From: Gemmatimonadota bacterium
GTDB lineage: Bacteria; Latescibacterota; UBA2968; UBA8231
Assembly: GCA_002712305.1 (NCBI GenBank)
Contig: PATE01000017.1
Coordinates: 5,441-23,860 of the forward strand
Direction of reading: 5' to 3'
Length of the DNA stretch: 18,420 bases
Shown: positions 15,564 to 18,420 of the stretch, in pieces
Layout of the letters: every line of letters starts with the position of its first letter
Numbering within the stretch: position 1 is the stretch's first letter
Translations under genes and position numbers: made by a program
Notes under the pieces: generated by a model
Database searches by the model: none
Seen by the model: the letters and a program-made list of their open reading frames with translations, nothing else
Told to the model about the DNA's origin: nothing

Positions 15564-16646
15564 CTAATCAATCGAGGCCGCACGCAGTTCGTCCGACCAA
15601 TCCCGCCACGCGTCGCCGCCCGCATTGTCGAGGGCGAGTTCGTCTGACAGGGCGGCCCGCGTCTTCAGATACCCGTAGATCGTCGCCTGACGGATGACGT
15701 CGTCAGAGCAGTTCTGCCCGGCCATGTGAAGGATCTTCGTATGCCACAACACGACACTTCCCGCTGGACCGTGCGTATCGACCGGTTTCGTGTCCACCTT
15801 GATCTGGCCAATGACCGCATCACTGTATCCACCCGCCTTGCGATCGGTCAGGTGTTTGTCCGTGTGTTTTTCGCCCTCTTTGTAGGCCTCCCACTGCTCA
15901 TCCCAGATCCTCGTATGGCTGCCCGGCCATACGGTGAATCCTCCCGAGTTCGGCGGCAGATCATCGATGTAGGCGGCGAACTGGAGTCGCCAACGTCCAT
16001 AACACGCCCCATCAGAATGGGAACCCCGATACTCCGGGCCCGGTGACGGGCTGTTTGGAAGTGTGCAATAGAGCCCGCGGCTCCCCTGACCGTTGAGCCA
16101 GACGGGGCCATTCTTTGGCAGTTTCAGGGCATCCTCGGTTTCGAAGGTCCCTTTCTCCGGCCATCCCATGCGGTCACCCATGTGGCTCACCAAGCCACCC
16201 ACGGCGTCATCACTCATCAGGCACGGACCTGTTGTCATCCCCGATTCATCAGCACCTTCGGGCCACACGACCGTATCGGCCCCCATCAACTGCTCGGCGA
16301 TTCTCCACAGGGCCCGCGGCGACAGGTCGAGCATGTCCTGCTCTGCGCCGTTGCGGATGTAGAATCGGTGGCCCTTTCCTCCCAGAAGTGGCTCGCCTCC
16401 ACCGCTCGGCCGTTTTGCCGCCAACCTCTCGCTTTCTTCGTCCGAGATGGGGCCCCACGTGGCGGGGTCATCTCGTTTCATTCTTGGCAGACCGTCGGCC
16501 AACGTCTCCCACATCTTGTCGCGCGCCGACCGACACCGTTCGGGATCGAGGACGCCCGGCAGCACGAGGTAGCCGTCCCGTTTGAATTGGACGACTTGAT
16601 CACTGGTCAATGGGGCGATCTGGTCGACTGCTGGGATCGTCGTCAT
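15564..16646 (-). CDS. Phytanoyl-CoA dioxygenase (PhyH) family protein, PhyH-4, intact iron triad
   Basis: A 360-residue cytoplasmic Fe(II)/2-oxoglutarate oxygenase, the longest of the four here. The N-terminus has VVQFKRDGYLVLPGVLDPER. The iron motif is GSHSDGA (His210-x-Asp212), followed by the strand RLQFAAYIDDLPPNSGGFTVWPGSH, the distal His307 in LWHTKILHMAGQN and Arg319 as 2-oxoglutarate anchor. A roughly 100-residue insertion before the iron motif (about 100-205) distinguishes it from the other three. ATG 16646 overlaps the SMP-30 stop as ATGA, so translation is coupled and a separate ribosome site is not needed; the open frame continues upstream to 16751 but only inside the SMP-30 gene. 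It ends a sialidase-like/SMP-30/PhyH operon. Confidence 0.93.
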   Translation of the reverse strand: MTTIPAVDQIAPLTSDQVVQFKRDGYLVLPGVLDPERCRSARDKMWETLADGLPRMKRDDPATWGPISDEESERLAAKRPSGGGEPLLGGKGHRFYIRNGAEQDMLDLSPRALWRIAEQLMGADTVVWPEGADESGMTTGPCLMSDDAVGGLVSHMGDRMGWPEKGTFETEDALKLPKNGPVWLNGQGSRGLYCTLPNSPSPGPEYRGSHSDGACYGRWRLQFAAYIDDLPPNSGGFTVWPGSHTRIWDEQWEAYKEGEKHTDKHLTDRKAGGYSDAVIGQIKVDTKPVDTHGPAGSVVLWHTKILHMAGQNCSDDVIRQATIYGYLKTRAALSDELALDNAGGDAWRDWSDELRAASID

Positions 16647-17542
16647 CGGTTGTCTCTGTCCCTGTCTGTGTGCATCATGGCCCAACTCCTGCCGGCATGG
16701 GGTGCCCGGAAGGCTTCGATACATCCTCGGTCGGACACTGTGACGTAGCAAGTCCGGCCGTCGGTTCCTCCGAAGGCGATGTTGGTCGGGTTCTTTCCCT
16801 TGATGGTGATCTCATCCAGCAATTCGCCGCCGGGGGAGATGATAGCGACTGTTCCCTTGCCGTAGCGCGTGACGTAGAGATTCCCCATCTCGTCGCAACG
16901 CATTCCATCGAGGCCAAAATCTTCGAAGGTGATCAGGAGTCGCTTATTCGACAGCTGACCGTCTGCAGACAGATCATACTGCCAGATCCAACGCTGCGCG
17001 CTCTCGCCCACATAAAGCGTGCCGCCATCAGGACCGACCTCGATGCCATTGGTCGTGCCCATCTCCGTTTCCATCAGATGCACAGTGCCGTCGGGGTCGA
17101 TTCGCCAGAGCTGCCCGGTGCCCTCGGACCAGTTGGGATCACTGGCGAACAACACATCGGCATCGATGATGGCCAGATCGTTCGGCTGATTCATGCGTGG
17201 CTCATGGTCGAAGACACTGATGGCTTTCGAAATGGGGTCGAGGCGCAACACATTGTGCCCGGTCACGTCGGCCACGAACAGTTGACCCTGCCGGTCAAAC
17301 CTCAGGCCATTGGCCATGCCGCCGGCGGGCACATCCACAAAGGTGCCATGGGTGCCATCCGCAGAGACCCGTCCAAGGGAAAAACTGCCCTCCCAGAGTC
17401 CGAGCATGGTGAGCAGGGCAACGAACTGGCCGCTCGCACTCGAACCATCTGTCAACTCACCGTACCCCATGGCAAAAAGGGTTCCCTCTGCATCACAGAC
17501 GGGCCCTTCGACCAGACCTGTGAACGTGTCCTGCGGGACCAC
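16643..17542 (-). CDS. SMP-30/gluconolactonase-family protein (possibly 5'-truncated by an in-frame TGA)
   Basis: A 299-residue six-bladed beta-propeller of the SMP-30/gluconolactonase/LRE family, which hydrolyses sugar lactones using one divalent metal. The metal ligands are present: Glu12 in LVEGPVCD, Asn165 in TTNGIEVGPDG and Asp212 in GLDGMRCDEMG; MANGLRF and QPNDLAI are further blade motifs. The GTG start leaves only about 11 residues before the first ligand, and AGGG lies 8 nt upstream. The same frame continues upstream through one TGA (17546-17548) into a signal-peptide-like leader, so this may be the body of an exported protein whose leader is now split off. It is coupled to PhyH-4 by an ATGA overlap. 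Confidence 0.88.
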   Translation of the reverse strand: MVPQDTFTGLVEGPVCDAEGTLFAMGYGELTDGSSASGQFVALLTMLGLWEGSFSLGRVSADGTHGTFVDVPAGGMANGLRFDRQGQLFVADVTGHNVLRLDPISKAISVFDHEPRMNQPNDLAIIDADVLFASDPNWSEGTGQLWRIDPDGTVHLMETEMGTTNGIEVGPDGGTLYVGESAQRWIWQYDLSADGQLSNKRLLITFEDFGLDGMRCDEMGNLYVTRYGKGTVAIISPGGELLDEITIKGKNPTNIAFGGTDGRTCYVTVSDRGCIEAFRAPHAGRSWAMMHTDRDRDNR

Positions 17543-17545
17543 GTC

Positions 17546-17668
17546 TCACACCCTGTGGGTTCCGGAATCACCATCGGTGGCGCTATCATCGGTTTCGGTG
17601 AAACCGGCAGTCGCGACCAAGAGGAGGGCAGTGACAGCAGAGATGGACATGCTCGAGAAGTGATCCAT
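17546..17668 (-). CDS. Leader fragment: 40-residue signal-peptide-like ORF in frame with the SMP-30 gene
   Basis: This small ORF starts 11 nt after the sialidase-like gene's stop and encodes a hydrophobic leader (MSISAVTALLLVATAGF, residues 7-23, with an A-T-A site) plus a Thr/Asp-rich linker ending THRV, then TGA. Two codons later, in the same frame, the GTG of the SMP-30 protein begins. A single C-to-T change (CGA to TGA) or a base-call error would explain the split. The n-region lacks Lys or Arg, which is unusual for an export signal. It could alternatively be a chance open frame, or a separate tiny peptide. Reading 16643-17668 as one interrupted gene is my preferred interpretation. Confidence 0.55.
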   Translation of the reverse strand: MDHFSSMSISAVTALLLVATAGFTETDDSATDGDSGTHRV

Positions 17669-17679
17669 TCGATTCCCGT

Positions 17680-18420
17680 TCACAGCGATGTGTTGTCCTG
17701 CAAGATATCACCGATCGAAAAACGGACACACGCCAGTCGTTTGTATCCATCGGCCTCGAACAGGCACAGAACGTGCGCGCGCGCCTCCCCCGGCGCGACC
17801 ATGACCAGATCACTATAGGCGGAAGGCCCTTTGTAGATCAGCATGGCGTGGGGCCACGTGTGGCCGCCATCCTCGCTCAGGTAGGCCGTCAGTTCCGAGC
17901 GGTCTCCGGTGCTGGCAGGGTGCACAACCAGGACCCGACGGTCACCGAGACTCAAAATACTTCCCTGACAGGAAAGCTCCGGCAGGGACGGCACGAATTC
18001 GATGGGCGACCAGCTCTGGCCACCATTTGAACTCCAGGACCGTCCTCGCTGCTGTCGGCCACCCCGGCTTCGCGCGGTCAGATACACACGGCCATCGACC
18101 TCTGCTGCTTCGCACTCGTCGGTTGTATCGTGGGTCAGCTTCTCGGATGGACGCCAACTCTCGCCGCCATCGTCACTCAACAGGGCATAGGAGCTCTGAA
18201 TCTTTCCCCAGTTTGCCGGTCGCCACGTCGCCGGGCCGGGACTCTCGTCGACCCAGCAGGGAATCAGCAGGCGACCGCTGGCCAACTGGATGCCGTGCCC
18301 CGGACCGGTGCCAACGAAGGTCCCGCCGGGGAGCAGAGCCTGGGCGCTGATGTCACGGGGCACATCCCACGTGTGACCGTCATCGCGACTGCGACTGAGA
18401 AAGACTCCCTGGTTGTCCTT
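17680..18420 (-). CDS. Sialidase-like BNR/Asp-box repeat protein, C-terminal part (truncated by window edge)
   Basis: The last 246 residues of a GH33-like neuraminidase-fold protein whose start lies beyond the right edge. Four Asp-box motifs (S-x-D-x-G-x-x-W) are seen in order: SRDDGHTW, SDDGGESW, SSNGGQSW and SEDGGHTW. FVGTGPGHGIQLASGRLLIPCW and VYLTARSRGG match segments around active-site loops and arginines of sialidases and related exo-glycosidases. Members release terminal sialic acids or other sugars from glycans, usually outside the cell, but the substrate of this branch is unclear. It ends with TGA at 17680-17682 and is the first visible gene of an operon with the SMP-30 and PhyH-4 genes. 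Confidence 0.88.
   Translation of the reverse strand, partial: KDNQGVFLSRSRDDGHTWDVPRDISAQALLPGGTFVGTGPGHGIQLASGRLLIPCWVDESPGPATWRPANWGKIQSSYALLSDDGGESWRPSEKLTHDTTDECEAAEVDGRVYLTARSRGGRQQRGRSWSSNGGQSWSPIEFVPSLPELSCQGSILSLGDRRVLVVHPASTGDRSELTAYLSEDGGHTWPHAMLIYKGPSAYSDLVMVAPGEARAHVLCLFEADGYKRLACVRFSIGDILQDNTSL

Follow-up and report, generated by a model that had tools for sequence, protein, structure and literature searches.

Among the described proteins closest to the one considered here are RPA3624 (PDB 8djf) and the Caulobacter xylonolactonase (7plb), both of which share with it the propeller fold and the residues at the ligand positions. For human SMP-30, the metal ligands are E18, N154 and D204, which we take to be the counterparts of the Glu, Asn and Asp positions discussed below. 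Unlike in RPA3624 and the xylonolactonase, the frame of the present gene is broken by a TGA before the domain, and the first blade carries a private 23-residue insert. The gene lies in the window, that is, the whole stretch of 18,420 nucleotides that was analysed, and it is probably a young pseudogene; the main alternative is a base-call error.

Gene layout and identity of the encoded protein

Read on the minus strand, ATG 17668 and the 39 codons behind it lead to a TGA at 17548-17546, which is followed by GAC, by GTG 17542 opening a run of 299 codons and by a final TGA at 16645-16643. The first-pass annotation had described a frame that continues upstream of GTG 17542, a single TGA and a 40-codon leader from ATG 17668, and all of this is borne out by the minus-strand reading, as are the start of the leader 11 nt past the stop of the BNR/sialidase-like gene (17682-17680) and the 11 residues that a product from GTG 17542 would have ahead of the first metal-ligand Glu. 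In the SMP-30 frame, 45 codons are open upstream of the TGA, back to GTG 17683 (leader frame 17549..17683, minus strand), and the leader has two possible starts, GTG 17683 (45 codons, with the TGA as codon 46) and ATG 17668 (40 codons). GTG 17683 overlaps the sialidase stop as GTGA, and the junction with the downstream gene is of the same type (ATGA at 16646-16643, shared by the SMP-30 stop and the PhyH ATG 16646). With the leader counted in, the sialidase, SMP-30 and PhyH genes are packed with 4-nt overlaps, whereas leaving it out creates a gap of 137 nt. The upstream gene (17680..18420, minus strand; Pfam BNR_2) is cut short where the source contig stops, contig and window sharing this end, 872 bases from TGA 17548-17546, and the downstream gene (15564..16646, minus strand; PF05721) is phytanoyl-CoA dioxygenase-like (PhyH). 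TGA also serves as the terminator of the SMP-30 gene itself and of 7 of the 13 window genes.

The window gene is a predicted SMP-30/gluconolactonase-type lactonase. The domain (16643..17545, minus strand) matches the PF08450 (SGL) profile with 142.2 bits against a curated cut-off of 26.3, and the best Foldseek matches of an AlphaFold model of the readthrough protein (pLDDT 82) are SMP-30-type lactonases with a six-bladed propeller (E 2e-21 to 8e-20). Residues E59, N212 and D259 (and N168) stand in invariant alignment columns, their ligand roles being assigned by motif and not by structure superposition. The pLDDT of the model is about 45 for residues 31-40 and 85 for residues 41-50; as order starts at about residue 41 and the TGA is residue 46, the stop falls inside the folded domain, the predicted fold starting about 6 residues ahead of it. 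The insert (GELTDGSSASGQFVALLTMLGLW; 17393..17461, minus strand, edges approximate) is absent from every homologue and is modelled partly as a helix. A search for its source in the genome itself and in 24 relatives found no second copy, and no internal repeat was found.

Further SMP-30 genes occur in the same genome. One (G000:C29, L142:111-3869) encodes a 1252-aa protein in which a PQQ-type sugar/alcohol dehydrogenase propeller (residues 28-625) is fused to ankyrin repeats at about 868-936 and to an SMP-30 lactonase domain at 994-1227, and a matching ankyrin and SMP-30 stretch is found in a 1259-aa frame of the congener G001 (L009). This fusion suggests that a dehydrogenase and a lactonase step are joined in one protein. 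Two other SMP-30 homologues, on contigs G000:C58 (L006) and G000:C133 (L007), have identical 310-aa open frames, which suggests either a recent duplication or an assembly or binning duplicate.

The leader and the TGA column in homologues

The leader (VNGNRMDHFSSMSISAVTALLLVATA followed by GFTETDD...) is signal-peptide-like, with a hydrophobic core and an A-T-A site, and an n-region Arg is present only with the GTG 17683 start. Openness over its length is expected in 23-31% of Markov sequences and is not significant alone, while only 0.2-0.3% of them have both an open frame and a 12-residue core as hydrophobic as that of the leader. Its codon-position GC (0.53/0.51/0.67, compared with 0.65/0.45/0.72 for the window genes) leans to the coding pattern. 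The leader sequence itself gave no alignment to homologous leaders; the homologues nearest in the tree (L025, L031, L027 and L029) have signal-peptide-like leaders, and these lie at the same place.

At the column of the TGA, the 20 family homologues have Arg (9), Ser (6), Lys (2), Thr, Glu or His, and the 72 wider relatives have Arg (16), Gln (16), Thr (10), Ser (9), Lys (9) or other residues, the latter column being read at a fixed offset from the Glu of EGP, where small indels may shift individual rows. The two sets have two places in common, giving about 90 relatives together. Neither set has a stop or a Cys at this column, and in both no residue is more frequent than Arg. The first-pass annotation had proposed checking whether close homologues run uninterrupted through this point with Arg or another residue, and all those examined do. 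A Pseudoxanthomonas relative among the 72, for example, reads LYVARDVVGDGIF..EGP (i.e. VARDVVGDGIF..EGP), where the window has HRV*DVVPQDTF..EGP. The frame is open upstream of the TGA point in all 72, and the nearest ATG is most often found 21 residues ahead of the first ligand Glu, compared with 11 for GTG 17542. Homologues starting at the equivalent of that GTG, which the annotation had named as evidence against its reading, were looked for among the relatives examined and none was found. As the relatives read through, none of them starts at the GTG 17542 equivalent and the fold begins ahead of the TGA, the leader and the SMP-30 domain form a single gene that the TGA interrupts; we regard the homology around the stop as the decisive evidence that the leader belongs to it.

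Probable recent loss and alternative readings of the TGA

The only sequenced congener, G001, has kept the order of the neighbourhood, including a PhyH orthologue with 77% identity and, over window positions 10.8-14.7 kb, four further genes. Its syntenic SMP-30 gene is a 3' piece only, in which residues about 171-209 are joined directly to about 256-339; it has lost the 5' half and 46 internal codons, and other sequence replaces everything upstream, the sialidase gene included. This orthologue is undoubtedly a degraded remnant. The replacement (G001:C44, L043:1-3710) marks a rearrangement breakpoint inside the G001 lactonase gene and contains a stretch resembling an ABC-transporter ATPase. Order and class searches for an intact orthologue from the same species or closer returned nothing closer than 61% identity.

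The window copy is the fastest-evolving family member compared. It differs from the G001 copy by 0.54 changes per site, compared with 0.15-0.22 for two other SMP-30 pairs from the same genomes, its dN of 0.23 exceeds those of the seven other gene pairs compared (0.07-0.18), and it departs from otherwise invariant columns at 9 positions, compared with 0-4 in other sequences. Some of this acceleration, however, is common to the sister lineage and predates the stop, which counts against reading it as decay. The body after the TGA is a single open frame with its ligand positions intact, and omega against the G001 remnant is 0.13, an estimate made with a saturated dS and a remnant that may itself have drifted, which as it stands points to selection during most of the divergence. 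Given the open frame, the intact ligands and the low omega, any decay cannot be old. A recent loss of function fits the remnant, the divergence, the departures and the insert together.

We therefore consider it fairly probable that the TGA arose by a genuine and recent nonsense mutation in a dispensable gene for an exported SMP-30-type lactonase; the change looks real and recent because the rest of the frame is open, all metal ligands are kept and the sister orthologue is a remnant. The uninterrupted homologues, the leaders of the nearest relatives and the G001 remnant likewise favour the first of two explanations offered by the first-pass annotation, a nonsense change or base-call error in an exported lactonase. 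In the proposed model, the lactonase would be the second gene of a tightly packed sialidase-lactonase-PhyH operon, in which a change to TGA would have hit one codon of the propeller's opening strand. Ribosomes beginning at the normal start would stop after 45 (or 40) residues, releasing a signal-peptide fragment. The stop would be present in the DNA of the organism, export would be the ancestral state, and little or no active enzyme would now be made.

Of the alternatives, the most serious is that the TGA arose as an error in one metagenome assembly and that the organism itself carries an uninterrupted gene for the exported lactonase, which we consider possible but unlikely. Such an error would yield an identical sequence, and what is available here is a single assembly; one altered base in a codon of the common Arg family would suffice, the remainder of the gene is intact, and the draft genome consists of 146 contigs at 91% completeness, with the stop close to a contig end. 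Against this, among the SMP-30 matches reported for the genome no other is interrupted, and with a degraded sister orthologue, an insert and raised divergence in the window copy, a real lesion is not surprising.

A genuine truncation, in which re-initiation at GTG 17542 (or coupling from the leader stop) gives a cytoplasmic form without a signal peptide, is improbable. The GTG is separated from the TGA by 3 nt, a spacing that favours re-initiation, the same family has cytoplasmic members, and the body is under purifying selection. The product would, however, begin closer to the first ligand Glu than in cytoplasmic relatives (mostly about 21 residues) and would lack some of the ordered residues of the model; it would have a shorter N-terminus than the protein of any relative, and no homologue uses an equivalent start. 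The Shine-Dalgarno-like pairing, at -4.1 kcal/mol, comes close to what random sequences give (median -3.0), a comparison that is itself weak because several other starts in the lineage show little Shine-Dalgarno signal. The switch to a cytoplasmic form, the second explanation of the first-pass annotation, thus gained no positive support, its ribosome site being no better than typical random 20-mers. The broader proposal that the TGA is maintained and functional, with readthrough or recoding giving a little exported enzyme, or with the stop and the GTG giving two forms in two compartments, appears quite improbable.

More improbable still is that the TGA is recoded, by selenocysteine or functional readthrough, to give the full exported protein. 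Selenocysteine was worth testing because the genome encodes a tRNA-SeC (anticodon TCA; L045:1501-1599) and a SelB (L053), the latter with C-terminal winged-helix domains; a hairpin can be drawn just 3' of the UGA, and a survey of in-frame stops has proposed TGA readthrough as widespread in bacteria (PMC7918605). Selenoproteins are usually recognised by Cys homologues together with a SECIS-like hairpin (PMC1088965). Here, no homologue in either set has Cys at the column, which is a variable position and not a redox motif, the hairpin is not stronger than in shuffled sequences (z -1.4, -0.8 and -0.1; range -1.36 to -0.07), and TGA is an ordinary terminator of the same gene and of others in the window. 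With no Cys homologue and downstream RNA that folds no better than shuffles, selenocysteine is disfavoured. A search of the accessible literature for selenocysteine in Latescibacterota found no paper; with tRNA-SeC and SelB encoded, in-frame TGAs elsewhere in the genome may be true selenocysteine codons. Finally, that the leader is an unrelated small ORF or a chance open frame and that the SMP-30 gene always began at GTG 17542 is barely credible, for although the leader cannot be aligned to homologous leaders and its openness alone is unremarkable, every relative extends in frame upstream through the TGA point, the gap left without it would contrast with the overlaps on both sides, and its position, hydrophobicity and codon-position GC fit the leader of the gene.

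Significance and comparison with known systems

The importance of a recent nonsense change at this locus lies mainly in annotation: a gene caller will start the lactonase at GTG 17542 and the product will be reported as cytoplasmic, whereas the evidence points to an interrupted exported enzyme. In a modest way, it would also illustrate how a gene is lost in a Latescibacterota-related lineage in which many SMP-30 paralogues are retained.

Like bacterial pseudogenes in which one nonsense codon has recently arisen, the window gene has one in-frame stop in an otherwise open and conserved sequence and, likewise, a broken orthologue in a sister species, and nothing about it is distinctive in this respect. 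The exported homologues from Latescibacterota relatives (L025, L031, L027/L076 and L029) are 51-54% identical to the window protein and share its arrangement of a leader, then an SR/RD strand, then FTxGIEGP, and the motifs GLDGMRCD and RYGKG are common to the window protein, L025, L031 and L027. In contrast to the window gene, all of these exported homologues are uninterrupted.
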